From NCBI GenBank assembly GCA_036504735.1, contig DASXUQ010000010.1, forward strand, positions 124,001 through 188,000: DNA of 64,000 nt, read 5' to 3'. The notes beneath the pieces are model-generated. The model was given only the letters and a program-made list of their open reading frames with translations. It did no database searches and was not told the origin of the DNA. Both the position numbers and the translations under genes were made by a program. Positions 1 through 11,204 of the stretch are shown here, piece by piece. The stretch's first letter is position 1, and each line of letters starts with the position of its first letter. Origin of the DNA: a bacterium. Lineage in GTDB: Bacteria > Electryoneota > RPQS01.

Positions 1-1
1 G

Positions 2-3000
2 ACCCAGGAACAGTTGTGGAATTACCAGACATACCAGACCTTCAGCATTGCGGGAGAGTATCCCGTGATGACGACGGGCGGTCCGTCGGTTCCGCAGGTG
101 AGCCGCTTTTACCGGATTCCGAATACGGGCGGCGCGGATCTCGTGATCAACGAAGCCGACTATGAGGTGGTAGACAATGTCAATGCTTTCCCGGTGCAGC
201 CGGAAGAAGCGGGCTTCAATGCCCTCGTGCGCAATGAAGCAGTCTACAGCAAGGATGGCTGGTATCCGGAAAACGTGGCGGTGATGAGCGATCCCATGAT
301 CATGCGCGACTTCCGCGTGGTCACGGTCACGCTCTACCCCGTGCAGGTCAATCCGGTCACCCATCAGGCCCGCATCTACCGCAACCTCAGCGTCGATGTG
401 GTCGCCAATAATCATCCCGGCGTCAATGAACTGCTGAATCCCCGCCGCCCTTCGAGCGCGTGGGCGAGTATCTACCGCAATCTGATTCCCAATCTGGACG
501 ATATGGCGCTGGATGATGTGACAACGGATCCGGGAAGCTATCTGATTCTGACCAGCAACAATGCGCAGGTCCGGCCGTGGGCGGACACGCTGGCGGAGTG
601 GAAGACGCGCAGGGGATTCAAGGTTACCGTAGACTCCCGTGGGACATGGTCCGCACAGGATGCGATCACGCGGATTCGCACCGCATACACGCAGTTCGAT
701 CCTCCTTTGGAGTTTGTCACGTTGATGGGAGATCCGGGCTGGAACGGCGTGGGTATTCCATCGGACGGCGGAAATTATGATCACTCCTTTGCCTTGGGGA
801 ATACACAGGACGAACTTGAAGACATCGGCGTGGGCCGGTTGAGTTGCGGCACAGGCAATGCACTGGGACAAGCCATTGCCAAAATCATGGCGTATGAGCG
901 CGAGCCGCATATGCAGAATGCTCAGCAGCAGCCGGACACGATGTGGTTCCGCAAGTCTTACCTGCTGGCGGGTATCGGGAATTCCTGCGCTGGCAATTAC
1001 CTGGTGATGCGCTGGGCGAAGGATCAGTTCCTGCACAATACAGGTGTGGACAGCAGCACGATTGCTACACACGATGGGGTGATGACGGGGCAGCAGGTGA
1101 CCGCCTTGCAGACGGCGGTGAACAACGGCATTGGCTACATGCTGTGGCGTGGCAGTTGGCAATTCCAGATGCCGAACACGATTGCGGACGGAACCAGCCC
1201 GGCGGGCCGGTTTCCGATCTGCATGTGCGTAACCTGCAATGCCGGCGATTTCACGGGCTCGGGCAATGCCGACAGCCCGGCGGAAGACTGGCTTAGCCCC
1301 ACGGGCTCTACCTATACGAATCCCAAGGGCGGCGTGGCGGGCATGGGCACGTCGTCAGCGGGAACCATGAACGGCGCGAACGTCGTTCTGGCCGCGGGCC
1401 TGATTTACAATATGGCGGATGTGCAGGTGCCGAATCTGGGAACGGCAGTAAACGGAGCGAAGGCACAGCTTTACCTGTCCTTCGGGCCGAGCCACTCCGA
1501 TCCGCACGGCGGAAACGTGGCACAGAATTTTTCGCGGCTGTTCAATCTGTTCGGCGACCCCGGACTTGAGATGTGGACAGACGTGCCGAAGGTGATGGAC
1601 GTGACGCATCCGGCAGTCCTGAATGTGGGGGATCGCGCGGTGAGCGTGTCGGTGGTCAATCACGCGACGGGCGCCGCCTTGGATGAAGCGCTGGTGGTGT
1701 TGTGGAAGCGAGGCGCGGATTCCACATGGGTAAAGGGGCTGACCGACGGTCAGGGCCGAATCACGCTGCCGGTGGCGGTGGGAACGGCGGGCAACATGTA
1801 TCTGACGGTGACCAAACGCGGGTATAAACCCTATCTGTTTACGATCCCCTGTGGCCAGGTAGATGCGATGCCCATGAACTGCAGCGTGGTGCTGGATGAC
1901 GACAACAGCGGCGGCACGCAGGGCAACGGGGACCATTTGATGAACCCCGGCGAGACGATTGACCTGCCGGTATACATCAAGAATTTCGGCAGCACCCTGA
2001 CAGTGACAGGAATTTCGGCGACGTTGACCAGCAGTGATCCGCGGGTGACGGTGACGAGCGCGACGGCAGGCTATACGGATCTGGCGCCGGGAGACTCGGT
2101 GCTGGGTTCAACGCCGTACCGGATCGTGGTCGGCCCCGGAGTACAGAACCATGATTTGATTCTATTGAGTCTTGCGATTGCGTCCTCGGCGGGTCAGACT
2201 GTGGGAGCAGTTTCCCTCGAGTGCCATGCGGGCGAGATGCGCAGCGTACGTTCGCGGCTCAGCGCAACGCTGGATCCGGGCGCCACGGCAAACCTGACGG
2301 CGGTGGTGCGGAACGTGAGCACAGTGCCCCTCACGGGTGTGACCGGGCACATTACGCCTCTCAGCCCATTTGTGCACGCGGACGACGCGGAAGCGGTGTT
2401 CGGAGATATTGCAGCGGGAGCGCTGGATTCCAATACGACGGACGTGTTTACCTTGACGGCGAACACGATGGCGTTTCGCGGCCTGCAGGTTCCGGTGCAG
2501 CTCATCCTGAGCACGGCGACCGGTTTTGCGGACACGGTGCAGTTTACAATCAGTGTCGGCTCAGCGGCCACGACCGATCCCACGGGACCGGACGCCTACG
2601 GCTACTACGCCTATGACAACACCGACGTGAACTATGAGATGCATCCCACGTACAGTTATGTGAACATCTCCGGCACGGGCGGCACGAACTTGAATCTGAG
2701 CGATCCGGGTGACAAGACCGATTGGCAGGCGATGTACTCGACGGCCCGACGACTGCCGTTCGGGTTCAAGTTCTATGGGCAGGTGTACGATACGATTACG
2801 GTATGTTCCAACGGCTGGTGCGCATTCGGCAATCAGTCCTATATCGACATGTTCCGCAACTATCCGATCCCGTCGATGGGTGCGCCGAGCGCGATGATCG
2901 CGCCGTACTGGGATGACCTGAAGACGAGCGGAACCGGCCAGGGTGTGTGGGTGATGGATGACGCGGCCAATCACCGCTATATTATCCAGTGGAAGGCCGG

Positions 3001-4879
3001 GGTGGGCAACAACAACTACGGCACGGCGTTGGACTTCGAAGTCGTTCTTTATGATACGACCTTCACACCGACGATGGATGGCAATGGCCAGATCCTGATG
3101 CAGTACAATGTCGCGTCGGGAACGAACGTGCCGAACCAGCAGAATGATGAAGCGGAAGGGTGTACGATTGGCATTCAGGCGCCGAATAATACCGTTGGCC
3201 TGGGTTATGCGCACCGGATAGATGTGATTCCGGGCTCGGCGACGATTGCAACCGGGCGGGCGATTATGTTTACCACGGAAGCCCGGCACATGTTCGGCGC
3301 CATTCAAGGCACGGTCTTAAACGCGGCCGATAATCTGCCGATGGCGGGCGCCCGGGTGAGCGTGAACGGCTATTCTTACCATACGACGACGGACGCCTCT
3401 GGACATTATCTGATCCCCGATGTGCTGGTGGGAACGTATGCTTTGAATGCGACCTTCCACCGCTTTAACGCGGATTCCGTGTCGAACATCGTGGTGGCGC
3501 TGGATGACACGGCATCGGCTGACTTTTCGCTGCACCATCCGGTGATGGAGCTGTCGGAGACGTCGCTATGGGACAGCGTCGGATCCGATCAGGGCAGCGT
3601 GCCGTTGACGATCTCCAATTCAGGCAACGGCCCGCTGGATTACGAAACGAGCATTTTCCTGCACGGCGACCCCAGCCCCAATCCGTGGGATTCGATTGGC
3701 AACGTAAGCGTGACGCAGATCACCGGCGATGGAATGCCGTGGGGGTGCGAATTCTTCCATGGCGAATGGTGGGTCAGCGGGCCGGGAACGGCTGGACAGC
3801 CGACGCTCTATCGCTTTGACACCGAAGGCAATGCGCATGGATCGGTTCCCCAGCCGGCGACGACAATGTTGGGATGGTTCGATCTGGCCACGGATGGACA
3901 GTATCTGTATGGATCGGACAACCATTCGATTACCGGAATCGACACGGCGGGCGTTGTTCAAGTGACAATCCCCAGCCCGCTTAATCCATGCCGGGCGATA
4001 GCCTATGATCCTGCGATGGACTATTTCTGGATTGCGGACTATACCTCGGACATTTACGCGATTGACCGGACCGGCGCGGTACAGATTCAGTTGCCGGACA
4101 CCGCGGGATACAATATTTCGGGCCTGGCGTGGAATGCGAACGACCCCAACGGTTACAAGCTCTATATCTTCAGCCGTGACGGAGCGAACCAGACGCGGAT
4201 TACGAAGATGGTTCCGACGGCACCTTATGCGCAACAGACGGTGGTGGATCTTCCCGCTCTTGCCGGCGACCGGGCAGCGGGCTGCACGATCACGAACCAG
4301 TGGAACAGCACGACGCAGGTGTTTGCAGGCATCGTGCGCGGCGGCGAAGGCGGACGCATTGCCATTCACGAGATGACGTTCAACTCTTCGTGGATGCATG
4401 TGCTGCCGTCATCGGCGGCGATTCCGGGACCGGGCTCGCAAAACCTCACCGTGACCTTCAATCCGGACTCCCTGCACGATGCGGTGTATCACGTGGACCT
4501 GCATGTGTCCAGCGTGATCTATGATTCGACGGTGATCATTCCGGTGACGCTGGTGGTGCGCCGCACTCTGGCGGCGGGCCATGTGTCGCACGAGATTCCG
4601 GCGGAATACGCGCTGCACCAGAACTATCCGAATCCGTTCAACCCCACCACGCAGATCGCGTTCGATCTTCCTAAGGCCGAGCATGTGAGGCTGGCGGTGT
4701 ACAATTCACTGGGGCAAAAGGTGGCGACGCTGCTGGACGAGACGCGGGCGGCGGGATCGTACGCGGTGAACTGGGATGGACGAACGGGCACGGGCGGCGA
4801 AGTATCGACCGGCGTATACTTCTATCAAATTAAAGCAGGCAGCTATACATCCGTCAAGAAGATGCTGTTGATGCGGTAG
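2..4879 (+). CDS. Secreted C25 (gingipain-like) multidomain protein, 5' end outside window
   Basis: The frame is open to the left edge, so the N-terminus is missing; the TTG at 14 is unlikely to be the start. About 1,625 residues remain. The order is a C25 propeptide-like region, a C25 caspase-fold peptidase region (nt ~530-1590), CARDB-like beta-sandwiches (~1870-2560), a large jelly-roll-like region (~2600-3270), a carboxypeptidase-regulatory-like domain (~3300-3530), beta-propeller-like repeats (~3670-4390) and a C-terminal FlgD-like/type A sorting domain starting with NYPNPFNPTT (~4620). The nucleophile-type Cys is in VTCNAGDF (nt 1229-1252). The expected GHG histidine motif reads MLWRGSWQF (nt ~1139-1165), so the catalytic His is not where expected. 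Probably cell-surface or secreted. The family is known; proteolytic activity is uncertain. Confidence 0.88.
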   Translation, partial: TQEQLWNYQTYQTFSIAGEYPVMTTGGPSVPQVSRFYRIPNTGGADLVINEADYEVVDNVNAFPVQPEEAGFNALVRNEAVYSKDGWYPENVAVMSDPMIMRDFRVVTVTLYPVQVNPVTHQARIYRNLSVDVVANNHPGVNELLNPRRPSSAWASIYRNLIPNLDDMALDDVTTDPGSYLILTSNNAQVRPWADTLAEWKTRRGFKVTVDSRGTWSAQDAITRIRTAYTQFDPPLEFVTLMGDPGWNGVGIPSDGGNYDHSFALGNTQDELEDIGVGRLSCGTGNALGQAIAKIMAYEREPHMQNAQQQPDTMWFRKSYLLAGIGNSCAGNYLVMRWAKDQFLHNTGVDSSTIATHDGVMTGQQVTALQTAVNNGIGYMLWRGSWQFQMPNTIADGTSPAGRFPICMCVTCNAGDFTGSGNADSPAEDWLSPTGSTYTNPKGGVAGMGTSSAGTMNGANVVLAAGLIYNMADVQVPNLGTAVNGAKAQLYLSFGPSHSDPHGGNVAQNFSRLFNLFGDPGLEMWTDVPKVMDVTHPAVLNVGDRAVSVSVVNHATGAALDEALVVLWKRGADSTWVKGLTDGQGRITLPVAVGTAGNMYLTVTKRGYKPYLFTIPCGQVDAMPMNCSVVLDDDNSGGTQGNGDHLMNPGETIDLPVYIKNFGSTLTVTGISATLTSSDPRVTVTSATAGYTDLAPGDSVLGSTPYRIVVGPGVQNHDLILLSLAIASSAGQTVGAVSLECHAGEMRSVRSRLSATLDPGATANLTAVVRNVSTVPLTGVTGHITPLSPFVHADDAEAVFGDIAAGALDSNTTDVFTLTANTMAFRGLQVPVQLILSTATGFADTVQFTISVGSAATTDPTGPDAYGYYAYDNTDVNYEMHPTYSYVNISGTGGTNLNLSDPGDKTDWQAMYSTARRLPFGFKFYGQVYDTITVCSNGWCAFGNQSYIDMFRNYPIPSMGAPSAMIAPYWDDLKTSGTGQGVWVMDDAANHRYIIQWKAGVGNNNYGTALDFEVVLYDTTFTPTMDGNGQILMQYNVASGTNVPNQQNDEAEGCTIGIQAPNNTVGLGYAHRIDVIPGSATIATGRAIMFTTEARHMFGAIQGTVLNAADNLPMAGARVSVNGYSYHTTTDASGHYLIPDVLVGTYALNATFHRFNADSVSNIVVALDDTASADFSLHHPVMELSETSLWDSVGSDQGSVPLTISNSGNGPLDYETSIFLHGDPSPNPWDSIGNVSVTQITGDGMPWGCEFFHGEWWVSGPGTAGQPTLYRFDTEGNAHGSVPQPATTMLGWFDLATDGQYLYGSDNHSITGIDTAGVVQVTIPSPLNPCRAIAYDPAMDYFWIADYTSDIYAIDRTGAVQIQLPDTAGYNISGLAWNANDPNGYKLYIFSRDGANQTRITKMVPTAPYAQQTVVDLPALAGDRAAGCTITNQWNSTTQVFAGIVRGGEGGRIAIHEMTFNSSWMHVLPSSAAIPGPGSQNLTVTFNPDSLHDAVYHVDLHVSSVIYDSTVIIPVTLVVRRTLAAGHVSHEIPAEYALHQNYPNPFNPTTQIAFDLPKAEHVRLAVYNSLGQKVATLLDETRAAGSYAVNWDGRTGTGGEVSTGVYFYQIKAGSYTSVKKMLLMR

Positions 4880-4910
4880 CGGACAGGTTGGTTCGGGCAC
4901 TTTGAGCACG

Positions 4911-4948
4911 GCAGGCCCTTCGTATGCCGGAGGGCCTGCTCTCTTTTC
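4911..4948 (+). terminator. Rho-independent terminator after the C25 gene
   Basis: A 9-bp perfect stem (GCAGGCCCT at 4911-4919 with AGGGCCTGC at 4931-4939) is followed by TCTCTTTTC. It lies 31 bases after the C25 stop codon and separates that gene from the TldD-type pair. Confidence 0.8.
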
Positions 4949-5008: not shown

Positions 5009-6721
5009 ATGAAAGACGTCATGGTCTGGTGGCGGCCGCTGATTCTGGCGTGCTGCCTGATTGCAGGACCGGCGCGGATGTGTTTGGCCGCCGATCCGGT
5101 GAACCTTTTGGATGTGATGCAGCAGGAGCTGCAAAGGTCCATGTCGCACCTTGGACAAAGTAAGGAAGCGCCGCTGTACTATCTCGGGTACACCGTGACG
5201 GAACGTCACACCTATGAAGCCCGGATGGTGGATGGGGCCTTGGCAGAGCCGCAATCTACGAACCGGAAGAATCTGGATGTGGATGTGCGCGTGGGCAGCA
5301 TGGCGCTGGACAATACGCACCAGATCCGCGAGGGGAGCTGGCGGGACAATGATTCCCGGCGGCGGATGGTGGATTTTCCGATGGAGACCGACGCGGCGGC
5401 GATTCGCGCGTCCCTGTGGAATGAAACGGAGTTTCAATTCCGTCAGGCGCAGGAACGCTACACGAAGGTGGTGGCCAACCGGCAGGTGAAGGTTGAAGAG
5501 CAGGACACGTCGCAGGATTTCTCGACGGCGCAGCCGCAGCAGTTCAGCGAGGCGTTCACGCTGACGGCTGTGGACCAGGGCCGCTGGCAGAGTATTCTGA
5601 AGCGCGTGGGCAAGGTGTTCATGGACTCGCCGTTTGTGCAGGAATCCAGCGCGCGTCTGTCGGTGAACGATCAGAACGTGTTTATGGTGAATAGCGAGGG
5701 AAGCCGGCTGCAGCACTGCAACCATTACCTTCGGCTGCGGATGACGGTGTCGGGGATGGCGGCGGACGGCATGAAGCTGGAACGCAACGCATCGTACGAC
5801 GCGGCGACGCCGGAAGGCATGCCGTCCGATGACGTGATGCTGGCGGATGCGCAGCGGATCGTATCGGAGTTGCAGTCCTTGATCAACGCGCCGCTGGTGG
5901 AGCCGTACATCGGCCCGGCGATTCTGCGCAGCCGCGCCAGCGCGGTGTTCTTCCACGAAATTTTCGGCCACCGGATCGAGAGTCACCGCCAGAAGAGCGA
6001 GACGGAAGGGCAGACGTTCACGAAGAAGGTGGGACAGCCTGTGCTGCCCGATTTCATCAGCGTGTACGACGATCCGACGCAGGCAAAGTTCAAGGGCGTG
6101 GATCTGCGCGGCTATTACACCTATGACGACGAAGGCATCCGGGCACAACGGGTGACGGTGGTGGACAAGGGCGTGCTGCGGAATTTTCTCACGTCGCGTT
6201 CGCCGATTGCGAATTTCCCACAGAGCAACGGACATGGCCGCCGCGAGTGCGGACAGGACGTGTGCTCACGCCAGGCAAATCTGATGGTGACGTCGGAGAA
6301 GGTGGTGCCGTATGAGCAGTTGCGCAAACTGCTGATCGAAACCTGCAAGAAGCAGGGGAAGCCTTACGGGCTGATCTTCGACGACATTTCCGGCGGGTTC
6401 ACGATGACAAGGCGGCAGGGACCACAGGCCTTCAAGGTGGAGCCGCTGCTGGTGTACAGGGTGTACGCCGATGGGCGGCCTGACGAAGTGATCCGCGGAG
6501 TGGATATTGTGGGTACGCCGCTGACGAGTTTCAGCAAGATCATCATGGCCGGCAACGACGACGCGGTGTTCAACGGAACCTGCGGCGCGGAATCCGGGTG
6601 GGTGCCGGTATCGGCTATTTCGCCCAGCGTGCTGGTGTCGGAAATCGAGGTGGAGAAGAAGCAGAAGGAGCAGGAGAAGCCGCCGATTCTGCCGCCACCC
6701 GGACATGACCCTCAACCCTGA
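5009..6721 (+). CDS. Exported TldD/PmbA-family metallopeptidase (zinc site intact)
   Basis: A TldD-family protein of about 570 residues. TldD enzymes are zinc metallopeptidases, best known as cytoplasmic TldD/TldE heterodimers. The HEXXXH motif is at H316-E317-H321 (HEIFGH, nt 5954-5971), and the third ligand expected from TldD is the Cys in GTCGAESG (C525, nt 6581). The N-terminus has a hydrophobic segment (MVWWRPLILACCLIAG) followed by an Ala-type cleavage site before ADPVN, so export is predicted. I start at ATG 5009 because GGGA lies five bases upstream; a TTG at 4985 and an ATG at 5021 are alternatives. It is followed after 20 bases by a paralogue, which fits a heterodimer. The C-terminus is Lys/Glu/Pro rich. 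Confidence 0.88.
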   Translation: MKDVMVWWRPLILACCLIAGPARMCLAADPVNLLDVMQQELQRSMSHLGQSKEAPLYYLGYTVTERHTYEARMVDGALAEPQSTNRKNLDVDVRVGSMALDNTHQIREGSWRDNDSRRRMVDFPMETDAAAIRASLWNETEFQFRQAQERYTKVVANRQVKVEEQDTSQDFSTAQPQQFSEAFTLTAVDQGRWQSILKRVGKVFMDSPFVQESSARLSVNDQNVFMVNSEGSRLQHCNHYLRLRMTVSGMAADGMKLERNASYDAATPEGMPSDDVMLADAQRIVSELQSLINAPLVEPYIGPAILRSRASAVFFHEIFGHRIESHRQKSETEGQTFTKKVGQPVLPDFISVYDDPTQAKFKGVDLRGYYTYDDEGIRAQRVTVVDKGVLRNFLTSRSPIANFPQSNGHGRRECGQDVCSRQANLMVTSEKVVPYEQLRKLLIETCKKQGKPYGLIFDDISGGFTMTRRQGPQAFKVEPLLVYRVYADGRPDEVIRGVDIVGTPLTSFSKIIMAGNDDAVFNGTCGAESGWVPVSAISPSVLVSEIEVEKKQKEQEKPPILPPPGHDPQP

Positions 6722-6741
6722 CCCCAAAGCTGGAGCAAAAC

Positions 6742-8469
6742 ATGCCACGATATACACGCTACGTTTCGGCAGCCGTGCTGGCACTGACCCTGTGCGGCGC
6801 AAGCCTTGCGGCGGAGGTCAAGGACCCGGTCTTCAAGGCGATGCAGGATGAACTGGACCGCTCTGTGAACCGGCTGGTGATCGAGAAGATGTCGCGCCCG
6901 TACTTCCTCAGCTACCGGATTGAGGACAACGAGCGCGTGGAGATCGGCGCGCGCTACGGTGCGCTGGTGGAATCGCAGCGGTCGAAGGATCGCTATCTGT
7001 ACGTTGATTTGCGGGTCGGCGACGCGGCGCTGGACAATTCCAATTTTGTCGGCGACTGGGGCGACCTCTACAATATGCGCCATGACCTGGCCGAGGAAGA
7101 TGATTACCAGGCGCTGCGGCATCAGATCTGGCTGTCCACGGACAAGGCTTACAAGGACGCGCTGGAGAATCTGGCGCGCAAGAAGGCCTTTTTGCAGACA
7201 CATCCGGCGCAGGAATCCCTCGGGGATTTCGGCAAGGCGGATCATCTGGAGGTGATGGACAAGCCGTATGCCTTGACGGCGGACACAGCGGCGTGGGCGG
7301 CATCGGTGCGGCAGGCGGCGGCAGCCTTGCGGGCCTATCCTGCGCTGCAGGATTGGAAGGTGACGTATACGGCGACGGCGGTGACCAAGCGGTATCTGAG
7401 TTCCGAAGGAAGCCGCCACATGAAGGGCGCGGTTCAGCAACAGATTGAAGTTTCCGCGACCGCACAGGCGAAGGACGGACAGCGGCTCAGCAGCTTCCGC
7501 CGGTTTGTGACGCGCGACGGAGAAAATCCGCCGCAGGGTGAAGACCTGGTGAAGGCCGTGCAGAAGATGTCGGAGGAGTTGACGGCAGCGGTGGCCGCTC
7601 CGGCATTGGATGAATACTCGGGTCCGGTGCTGTTTACGGACTACGCATCGGCGCAGGTGATCTCGCAGCTCTTTGCGGAGCAGCTTACGCTGGCGCGGGA
7701 CGTGCTCACACCGGAAGACTGGATGAGCCAGTATTTTTCGCTGGGCAAATTAGCCGAGCGGATGAACCGGCGGGTGATGCCGGATTTTGTGACGATCACG
7801 GATGATCCGAAGACAGCCGAATGGAAAGGCCACCGGCTGCTGGGGCATCAGGTGGTGGATGATGAGAGCGTGCCCAGCCGCACCCTGACGCTGGTGAAAG
7901 AAGGGCGGCTGGTGAGCTTGCCCAGCACGCGACAGCCGACGAAGAAGACGCCGGAATCCAACGGCCACGCGCGAACTCTGATCAACCAGTGGACGATTCC
8001 GGTGGTGACGAATTTGTTTGTGAAGACGGATAAGCCCGTGGCCGCGCCGCAGATGATGGAGAAACTGCGGCGGCTGGCGAAAGACTCGGGCAACGAGTAC
8101 GGACTGCTGATCACGCGGCTGGAAGACGAGCGGATTTCCAACGAGTACTCGTGGATGGACGATTCGCAGGACAAGCCCAAGCTGATGACGCAGCCGCTGA
8201 TTGCCTACAAGGTGTATGCGAAGGATGGGCGGATGGAGCCGGTGCGCGGTCTGATTTTCGATGACGTGACGATCCGCAGTCTGCGCGACATTTCGGCGAT
8301 GGGCAAAGACGAACAAGTGTACGGCATGCTGCAGCCGACAATGCTGCCGCAGGTCCAATATCCGGTGAGCATCGAGACGCCGTCGATTCTGATCGAAGAG
8401 ATGGAATTCAAAGCCAACACGGCGCATGAACCGCTGCCGGTGAGCAGCAATCCCCTGTTTGAAAAATGA
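6742..8469 (+). CDS. Exported TldE/PmbA-like paralogue lacking the zinc site
   Basis: 575 residues, related along its length to the preceding TldD protein: the N-terminal region resembling LDNSNFVGDW, the DDE-like loop near nt 7855 and the VYxxDGRxxxVRG stretch near 8215 all match. At the place of HEXXXH it reads SAQVISQLFAEQ (near nt 7650), and the C-terminal Cys is replaced (MLQPTMLPQ), so zinc binding is lost, as in TldE. A signal peptide is clear: a hydrophobic core VSAAVLALTLCG then ASLAAEV. GGAG lies 10 bases before the ATG. It probably forms the non-catalytic half of an exported heterodimer. The stop codon overlaps the ATGA at 8466 in front of the M6 protease, suggesting co-transcription. 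Confidence 0.85.
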   Translation: MPRYTRYVSAAVLALTLCGASLAAEVKDPVFKAMQDELDRSVNRLVIEKMSRPYFLSYRIEDNERVEIGARYGALVESQRSKDRYLYVDLRVGDAALDNSNFVGDWGDLYNMRHDLAEEDDYQALRHQIWLSTDKAYKDALENLARKKAFLQTHPAQESLGDFGKADHLEVMDKPYALTADTAAWAASVRQAAAALRAYPALQDWKVTYTATAVTKRYLSSEGSRHMKGAVQQQIEVSATAQAKDGQRLSSFRRFVTRDGENPPQGEDLVKAVQKMSEELTAAVAAPALDEYSGPVLFTDYASAQVISQLFAEQLTLARDVLTPEDWMSQYFSLGKLAERMNRRVMPDFVTITDDPKTAEWKGHRLLGHQVVDDESVPSRTLTLVKEGRLVSLPSTRQPTKKTPESNGHARTLINQWTIPVVTNLFVKTDKPVAAPQMMEKLRRLAKDSGNEYGLLITRLEDERISNEYSWMDDSQDKPKLMTQPLIAYKVYAKDGRMEPVRGLIFDDVTIRSLRDISAMGKDEQVYGMLQPTMLPQVQYPVSIETPSILIEEMEFKANTAHEPLPVSSNPLFEK

Positions 8470-8495
8470 TCCTTTCTAACGCGAGTGAACTTCCA

Positions 8496-11204
8496 GTGAA
8501 ACCCTGCACTACCGCCTTGACGGTGCTCCTGCTGTTTTGCCTTACGTCTGTTTTGCCGGTGTCGGCTATGCCGCCGCATCCGGATCTGTTGCAGAAAATC
8601 CGGAGCCACGAAGTGGCCGCGCCGTACTACCTGCAGCACTATCAGCAAATTCAGTCCCGCGGGGTGGAATCCCCGACGCGCCGTCCGCTGGTGGATATGC
8701 TGCGTCAGCGTTCCCTCGACGAGGATATTAATATGATCGCGATCCTCGTGGATTTCAGCGATCATGGCGCGCATACGGATCCGGTCGGTTTCGACAGCCT
8801 GTTGTTTGGAGCGAACACGGGAACGCTGCGCAACTATTATTCGCAGGTCTCCTACGGCAACCTGACGCTGGTGACCCTCAACATGCCCAGCGCGCTGGAA
8901 TGGCAGCGGGCGCCGCACACCTACAGCTATTACGTGGATGGACAGAACGGATTCGGAAGTTATCCGCAGAACGCGCAACGGCTGGCGGAAGACGCCGTGA
9001 ACCTCGTGGATCCGCTGGTGGATTTTTCGCAATATGACAATGACGGCGACGGCCATGTGGACGCGCTGTTCATCATTCACACCGGACCGGGCGCAGAGCG
9101 GACGGGCCGCGGATCGGATATTTGGTCCCACAAGTGGCAGATGCAGAATCCGCCGCAGGTGGATGGCGTAACGGCGGATGTCTACTCGATGGAGCCGGAG
9201 TACTGGGATGTGCCCGGCGATATGACGTGCGGCGTGTACGCGCACGAGATGGGGCATTCGGTGTTTGGATTGCCCGACCTGTACGATTATGACTATGATT
9301 CGGAAGGCGTGGGTAATTGGAGCCTGATGGCGGGTGGGTCGTGGAACGGCGGGATGGGCAGCCTGCCGTCCCATCCCGACGCTTGGAGCCGGATCCGCAT
9401 GGGATTTGTGAACGCGACGAACCTGACATCGAACGTGACTCGCATGGCGATTCCGTCCGTGGAGGCGACGCCGCAGATTTTCCGGATGTGGACGGACGGC
9501 CAGCAGGGCAGCGAGTATTTTCTGGTGGAGAACCGGCAGCAGGAAGGCTATGACCGGGGATTGCCGTCCGGCGGCCTGATGATCTGGCACGTGGATGATC
9601 AACAGTACGGGAACGACCATCAGTGGTATCCCGGCTATACGGACCAGGGGCATTACCACGTGGCGCTGGAGCAGGCGGACGGCTTCTGGAATCTTGAACA
9701 CAATGCGGGCCGGGGCGACGCGGGTGATCCGTATCCGGGCGCGCTGGAAAATCATATTTTCAACGTGAACAGCGCACCCAGCAGCGAAGCGTACGATTTG
9801 TCGGACTCGCATGTTTCGGTGCGGCACATCAGCGCCTCGGCGGACACGATGTACGCGGGATTTTATGTGAGTTCATCTCCTGACGGCAACCCGGCGTTTG
9901 TGTGGATGCCGGACACATCCGTGGTTGCAGGTTCGGACATAGTGATTCCGGTGGGCGTGGAAAATGATCTGAACGGCCGCAACGTGACGTCGCTGCAGTT
10001 TACGGTGCACTTCGATTCGACGCTCTTCAGCGCCGTTGCGCCATACGTGATCCGGGGCGGACTGGTGCCGCAATCCTGGAACCTAACGGCGACACCCGCG
10101 AGCGGCTCGCTGACGGTGAATGCCTCGGGCAGTGCGCCCCTCAGCGGAAACGGCACGATGCTGTCTTTGCAGCTCCACGCGGCACGGGCGGCGCAGGATA
10201 ATTCTTGCAGCGCGCTGACGTTTGCCGGATTCACGCTGAATCAAGGGGTGCCTGCGGTAGACACCACCAACGGACGTGTGTACGTGATGGCGTCCCGGAT
10301 TGTCTTTACGCCGGTGATCCTCGACCTGGACGTGGCGCGCGTAGGCTCGACGGAGGTTTACGATGCGTTCGTGATTCGGAACACCGGCAGCGCGGATCTG
10401 GTGCTGGATTCCCTGCATATTCCGGGTTTCATCACGACGGATTTTCACGGGCCGCGAACGGTGGGACCTAACCGCTGGTACCCGGTGCGCGTGCAGTTTG
10501 CGCCGACGGAACCGCGGCTGTTCGAGGATACGCTGATTGTTTACAGCAGTGATTACACCAGTCCGAACCGGATGCCGGTGCATGGGCGGGGTGGAGTGCC
10601 TGCACTGACGGCATCGGCGACGAGCGTGAATTTCGATACGGTGGAGATCGGTCAGCAGGGAGTACGAACTCTTCAGCTTGCCGACAGCGGATACTGGCCG
10701 ACGGCGATTCAGAGCCTGCGGCTGGCGGCGGGTTTGGTGTTCTCCGTGGCGGACAGCACGCGTCCGGCGACAGTGCCTGCGCGCGGTGAACGGACGTTGT
10801 CTCTGGTGTTTGCGCCGACCGCCGGCGTGTGGAGCGACACACTGATTATCACGCATGATGCGGGTGAGCCGCTGCGCGTAGTGCTGCATGGAGTGGGAGC
10901 GGTCCTCCGGACCGACGATCCGAATGGAACGGCGCTGCCGACGGCGTTCGGTTTGTCGTCGAACTTCCCGAACCCGTTCAACGCCACGACGGTGTTGACG
11001 TATGCCGTGCCGCGCGCCGCGTGGGTTACGCTGACGGTGTACGATGTGCTGGGCCGGGAGGTGGATGCGCCGGTGAAGGGAATGGCACAGGCAGGTCGGT
11101 ACACAATCCGCTGGGGCTGCTCCGAATGCGGCAGCGGAATCTACTTCTTCGTGTTGTCCGCCGGCGGTGTGCGGCTGACGCAGAAGGCGATGCTGCTGCG
11201 CTGA
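8496..11204 (+). CDS. Secreted M6 family (immune inhibitor A-like) metalloprotease with sorting domain
   Basis: About 902 residues from GTG 8496, which places a clean signal peptide at the N-terminus (hydrophobic TALTVLLLFCLTSVL then PVSA). ATG 8466, overlapping the previous stop, is the alternative. The zinc motif HEMGH (H250, E251, H254) is followed by SVFGLPD, giving the candidate third ligand D261, and LYDYD, typical of M6 though with one residue more than HEXXHXXGXXD. After the catalytic region (~60-455) come a cohesin-like beta-sandwich (~465-590), two ASPM-SPD-2-Hydin-like Ig domains (~600-800) and a C-terminal FlgD-like/type A sorting domain beginning NFPNPFN. It degrades extracellular protein, or matures surface proteins, by family inference. 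Confidence 0.88.
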   Translation: MKPCTTALTVLLLFCLTSVLPVSAMPPHPDLLQKIRSHEVAAPYYLQHYQQIQSRGVESPTRRPLVDMLRQRSLDEDINMIAILVDFSDHGAHTDPVGFDSLLFGANTGTLRNYYSQVSYGNLTLVTLNMPSALEWQRAPHTYSYYVDGQNGFGSYPQNAQRLAEDAVNLVDPLVDFSQYDNDGDGHVDALFIIHTGPGAERTGRGSDIWSHKWQMQNPPQVDGVTADVYSMEPEYWDVPGDMTCGVYAHEMGHSVFGLPDLYDYDYDSEGVGNWSLMAGGSWNGGMGSLPSHPDAWSRIRMGFVNATNLTSNVTRMAIPSVEATPQIFRMWTDGQQGSEYFLVENRQQEGYDRGLPSGGLMIWHVDDQQYGNDHQWYPGYTDQGHYHVALEQADGFWNLEHNAGRGDAGDPYPGALENHIFNVNSAPSSEAYDLSDSHVSVRHISASADTMYAGFYVSSSPDGNPAFVWMPDTSVVAGSDIVIPVGVENDLNGRNVTSLQFTVHFDSTLFSAVAPYVIRGGLVPQSWNLTATPASGSLTVNASGSAPLSGNGTMLSLQLHAARAAQDNSCSALTFAGFTLNQGVPAVDTTNGRVYVMASRIVFTPVILDLDVARVGSTEVYDAFVIRNTGSADLVLDSLHIPGFITTDFHGPRTVGPNRWYPVRVQFAPTEPRLFEDTLIVYSSDYTSPNRMPVHGRGGVPALTASATSVNFDTVEIGQQGVRTLQLADSGYWPTAIQSLRLAAGLVFSVADSTRPATVPARGERTLSLVFAPTAGVWSDTLIITHDAGEPLRVVLHGVGAVLRTDDPNGTALPTAFGLSSNFPNPFNATTVLTYAVPRAAWVTLTVYDVLGREVDAPVKGMAQAGRYTIRWGCSECGSGIYFFVLSAGGVRLTQKAMLLR

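Follow-up and report, generated by a model that had tools for sequence, protein, structure and literature searches.

A putative exported TldD/TldE-type metallopeptidase with one active and one inactive subunit, encoded in many bacterial phyla

Introduction

Few peptidases are as widespread among prokaryotes as TldD/TldE, for which a general function is yet to be settled (PMC5810440). In E. coli, TldD and TldE (PmbA) form a hollow heterodimer in which TldD alone holds the metal, with H262, H267, and C454 as ligands. The enzyme takes unfolded peptides only and trims them from the N-terminus (PMC5810440).

The window analyzed here is a stretch of 64,000 nucleotides from a bacterium of the phylum Electryoneota (GenBank assembly GCA_036504735.1, contig DASXUQ010000010.1, positions 124,001 to 188,000). 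It encodes two adjacent TldD/TldE-type paralogues that both begin with a predicted signal peptide and lie between a C25 peptidase and an M6 metalloprotease. The locus raises the question of whether the paralogues are an exported counterpart of TldD/TldE, and whether they work together with the proteases on either side.

Sequence features of the two paralogues

Gene A (positions 5009..6721, + strand) encodes a putative exported TldD-like active subunit of 570 amino acids. Gene B (6742..8469, + strand), 20 bases further on, encodes its putative exported TldE-like inactive partner of 575 amino acids. The two had been annotated as TldD/TldE-type paralogues. Both open reading frames are present, and each matches the third PmbA/TldD domain alone, PF19289, well above the cut-off (98.4 bits for A, 69.1 bits for B). 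Scores against the NCBIfam TldD equivalogs were 75.2 bits for a cut-off of 635 bits and 49.3 bits for a cut-off of 513 bits.

Numbered from the ATG at 5009, A carries the sequence HEIFGH at residues 316-321 (5954..5971, + strand), a predicted metal-binding and catalytic motif that includes H316, E317, and H321. Its Cys525 (6581..6583, + strand), the equivalent of E. coli Cys454, is the predicted third metal ligand. A search with A matched E. coli TldD (PDB 5nj5) with an E value of 1.6e-15 over residues 187-546, the catalytic region, and the alignment places HEIFGH on HExxxH and C525 on CG. A scan of B for HExxxH found none, and the sole Cys of B, Cys18, lies inside its signal. The zinc site is kept in one paralogue and lost in the other, as first noted. 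Searched against the PDB as a single sequence, B gave no match; as a profile, it finds PmbA and TldD with a slight preference for PmbA.

The C-terminus of A is a Pro-rich tail, KPPILPPP (6677..6700, + strand), in which P559, L561, and P564 are found in 80/80 of the A proteins analyzed. The C-terminal tail of B (8428..8466, + strand) contains Pro571, present in 72/74 homologues. The Pro-rich tail was not found in the canonical TldDs compared and, judged by sequence, the KPPILPPP region of A is specific to the exported family.

Conservation across genomes

A genome scan identified at least 478 relatives, and the best 80 loci, window included, were analyzed. These 80 loci span at least 12 phyla: Planctomycetota, Acidobacteriota, Verrucomicrobiota, Eiseniibacteriota, Zixiibacteriota, Elusimicrobiota, Caldifarciminota, Cloacimonadota, Pseudomonadota, Calditrichota, Electryoneota, and Cyanobacteriota/Melainabacteria. 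In 73 of them (window counted), B comes directly after A and in the same orientation. The remaining loci are mostly cut by contig ends, and four hold a partial B. Two loci, L015 and L055, have an A without a detectable B nearby, and A may therefore not always need B. In one Planctomycetota locus (L037:7977-9671), a stop splits gene A into two open reading frames while B is intact.

H316, E317, H321, and C525 are invariant in the A proteins (80/80), and the corresponding positions are replaced in B. PF19289 is matched by 43/43 A and 57/57 B members, and the central domain PF19290 is matched weakly, in 18 A and 18 B members. PF01523, the N-terminal domain of canonical TldD, was searched for at E 0.01 and matched 0/43 A and 0/57 B members. 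Since this domain is not recognized, the entry channel may differ from the canonical one. The A and B distances correlate over the 73 loci (r=0.92), a value to which shared species history contributes. A plasmid search returned TldD-type genes as weak matches only, and none was related over its full length.

Export signals

From direct reading and conservation among homologues, A is predicted to carry a signal peptide at residues ~1-27 (5009..5089, + strand) and B at residues ~1-24 (6742..6813, + strand). A begins with MKDVMVWWRPLILACCLIAGPARMCLA, followed by ADP, with cleavage near the CLA/AD junction, and B begins with MPRYTRYVSAAVLALTLCGASLAA, followed by EVK; both cleavage sites are our own reading. 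The homologues were examined with a strict, home-made sequence rule rather than SignalP. The rule asks for a positive n-region, a hydrophobic core, a cleavage site with small residues, and a start codon before the conserved core. Among the best 80 loci, 65/80 A proteins and 68/73 B proteins pass. In controls, 9/765 internal positions of the same genes pass, as do 0/38 canonical TldD/E proteins of the phylum, four of which carry a twin-arginine motif that is outside the scope of the rule. Several of the A proteins that fail still have a visible hydrophobic start on inspection. The predicted Sec-type export signals on A and B are conserved far above chance, which bears out the signal peptides initially assigned to both paralogues. 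A downstream start codon that removes both signals is unlikely, as the same kind of signal recurs across phyla.

Neither A nor B matched the T9SS C-terminal sorting domain TIGR04183. Without such a tail, the periplasm would be the likeliest location of both proteins.

Pairing and structure models

An Eisenbacteria locus (L004:7956-11327) encodes a natural A-B fusion, a 1124-amino-acid open reading frame that has one signal, at its N-terminus. Both the stretch between the genes and the signal of B are missing, which one sequencing error could not have brought about.

AlphaFold2 was run on the 1092 mature residues of this fusion with 34 further alignment rows, including 14 two-gene rows. These bridging rows come from loci that have A and B in one frame and were read through the stop. 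When the fusion was aligned with single-subunit rows only, the paralogues were merged onto each other, and the bridging rows solved this. The resulting model has a pLDDT of 90.5 and a pTM of 0.87. If both halves were well folded but their mutual placement were undefined, a pTM near 0.5 would be expected. By the definition of pTM, from which alone this is read, the value of 0.87 suggests that the model is confident about the packing of the A and B halves.

The model matches E. coli TldD with an E value of 3.5e-30 and a TM score of 0.81 by target, and its significant PDB matches are TldD/TldE entries only. Modeled alone, B of the window has a pLDDT of 93.8 and a pTM of 0.93. A Foldseek search of the PDB with this model gave 16 TldD/TldE chains as the only significant matches (best E value 4.4e-25). 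The structure prediction proposed in the initial annotation, when run on B, thus returned a TldD/TldE fold.

A and B almost certainly pair as active and inactive halves. The pattern of an active/inactive heterodimer, proposed from the single locus, now extends to 73 A-B pairs with invariant ligands in A. The conserved pairing and signals, the invariant ligands, the natural fusion, the fold searches, and the confident model of the fused pair together give good support to an exported heterodimeric metallopeptidase. The dimer of the window pair and its geometry are predictions from the pTM of the fusion model of a relative.

Relationship to canonical TldD/TldE

A and B share with E. coli TldD and TldE (PDB 5nj5 series) the fold of both subunits, the arrangement of active and inactive paralogues with an HExxxH and Cys metal site in one of them, and, it is expected, the hollow heterodimer. 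They differ from the E. coli pair in several respects. Both A and B have predicted Sec signals and Pro-rich C-terminal tails, and their mature chains are 60-100 residues longer. PF01523 is unrecognized in them, and their TldD equivalog scores are approximately tenfold below the cut-off. In the trees, moreover, A and B tend to fall together, apart from TldD and TldE.

The genome that contains the window is 98% complete. A search of it for canonical TldD/E gave no PF01523 match, and A and B are its only PF19289 matches. Nine other genomes of the same family have neither the exported pair nor canonical TldD/E. Among 36 genomes of the phylum, the exported pair is found in 7, canonical TldD/E in 19, and both in 5. 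Canonical members are also found in 28/37 genomes of the homologous loci, and because of this coexistence the exported pair is a system separate from canonical TldD/E. The idea that A and B are a relocated sole TldD/E fits the window genome, which lacks a canonical pair, yet it was rejected on the basis of the same 28/37 genomes. In one genome, that of L011 (G044), the N-terminal domain of canonical TldD is matched thirteen times, an unusual expansion.

Some other TldD proteins may have links to the outside of the cytoplasm. Four genomes from the phylum (L091, L094, L100, and L105) have a canonical TldD with a twin-arginine motif (SRRDFL/SRREFL) beside a signal-less TldE. These proteins resemble A in having HExxxH and an export signal and in adjoining a TldE. 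Unlike A and B, they have the canonical PF01523 architecture, carry the motif on TldD only, and belong to a separate lineage. They may be a second type of exported TldD, with the partner TldE perhaps carried along. In Myxococcus xanthus, the 'Peptidase U62' MXAN_2519 is enriched in outer-membrane vesicles (PMC4158809). At the family level it is comparable to A and B, as a TldD-family protein located outside the cytoplasm by proteomics. A Leptospira TldD listed in the exoproteome (PMC5881292) was considered as a further case and set aside, since ClpP, HslU, and Map are listed with it and lysis is likely. Literature searches on TldD that is exported, periplasmic, secreted, carried by vesicles, or tagged with a twin-arginine motif turned up neither a description of the A/B family nor an experiment on it. 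As far as the literature found shows, the exported pair, present in many bacterial phyla, is apparently undescribed before.

Origin of the inactive subunit

In the trees, A and B fall into a single clade that excludes canonical TldD and TldE (SH-aLRT 99-100). With full-length alignments, a topology in which A joins TldD is rejected (AU p=0.0002); with the C-terminal domain stripped of the metal-site columns, it is not (AU p=0.11). Loss of the metal site in B independently of TldE is favoured by these trees but unproven. For TldE itself, Ghilarov et al. assumed descent from a TldD whose site had been lost (PMC5810440). Should an inactive partner have arisen two times, the family would be a good case of convergent pseudoenzyme evolution.

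A broader reading is possible and is put forward tentatively. A and B may represent a widespread, undescribed envelope peptidase, in which duplication of an exported TldD-like gene gave rise to an inactive partner without any part played by TldE. It would be the periplasmic counterpart of the cytoplasmic TldD/E in many diderm phyla, with a tie to LPS export in Acidobacteria.

Proposed function

Together, A and B probably make up an exported metallopeptidase of the TldD/TldE type, with A as the active and B as the inactive subunit, which would serve in the disposal or trimming of periplasmic peptides. This role is proposed because the exported pair keeps the features that the mechanism of E. 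coli TldD/E needs. Each protein would pass Sec by its own signal peptide. The two would then form a hollow heterodimer outside the cytoplasm, with the periplasm as the most likely site. A would hold the metal through the two His residues of HExxxH and Cys525 and would cleave the substrate, and B would close the chamber by forming its other wall. If the enzyme behaves like E. coli TldD/E, it would admit unfolded peptides only, shortening them from the N-terminal end with little regard to sequence. The likely job of the enzyme would be the disposal or trimming of cell-envelope peptides. A large subfamily that has export signals on both subunits, coexists with the cytoplasmic enzyme, and retains one active and one inactive partner suggests that the chambered design also has a use in the envelope, and it makes the A-B pair a testable candidate for the ATP-free disposal of unfolded periplasmic peptides.

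A more specialized task is the best of the alternatives and is unlikely. The pair could remove leaders from specific exported peptides, as TldD/E does with the microcin B17 leader (PMC5810440), and TldD/E is discussed among RiPP leader proteases (PMC10885120). The pair could also belong to a dedicated envelope pathway, LPS transport for instance. A gene for LptF/LptG lies directly 3' of B in 12/16 Acidobacteriota loci that have downstream DNA (L050, L053, L056, L064, L065, L066, L068, L070, L074, L078, L080, and L081), with 50-73% identity, and it is the sole widely recurrent neighbour of the pair. However, this link occurs in one phylum only and is absent at the window locus. No other neighbour is kept across phyla, and the recurrent neighbours do not have the look of a RiPP pathway. 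General peptide trimming in the periplasm is preferred.

Flanking proteases

The C25 peptidase (1..4879, + strand) starts 5' of the window, at approximately -183, and has a signal peptide and a T9SS tail. The M6 metalloprotease (8466..11204, + strand) also has a T9SS tail and may be co-transcribed with A and B. An overlap of B with the M6 gene had been reported. This is correct for an M6 start at ATG 8466, where the overlap is 4 bp (ATGA), and fails for the equally possible start at GTG ~8496.

The initial annotation went further and suggested that the pair forms a periplasmic or secreted proteolytic module with the C25 and M6 proteins. The four genes do share direction, B and M6 lie within a few bases of each other, and all four products appear to be exported. 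Against this, a strong terminator-like hairpin with a 13 bp stem and a T-rich tail (4910..4940, + strand) sets C25 apart from A. M6 adjoins the pair in 0/79 other loci and C25 in 1/79, on the opposite strand, though some of these loci have short flanks. The neighbours of the pair differ even among loci of the same phylum. The final compartments probably differ as well, since the T9SS tails are on C25 and M6 and not on A or B. Neighbours of the T9SS type are unremarkable in this genome because it has SprA and at least 150 T9SS tails. A common module is therefore not supported and very improbable, the link of A-B to the flanking proteases looks like chance, and C25 is judged to be outside the A-B system.

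Least probable is an ordinary cytoplasmic TldD/TldE with artefactual signal peptides: the in-frame Met24 of A could serve as a signal-less start, but family homology begins right after the signals, which vary in sequence and not in character, the pass rates of A and B far exceed those of the internal and canonical controls, the fused L004 protein has lost its internal signal alone, and most of the homologue-bearing genomes have canonical TldD/E as well.

To our knowledge, reviews describe T9SS as Bacteroidetes-specific. The genome of the window, which is placed outside Bacteroidota, encodes its SprA-like protein at G000:C8:189815-191131.
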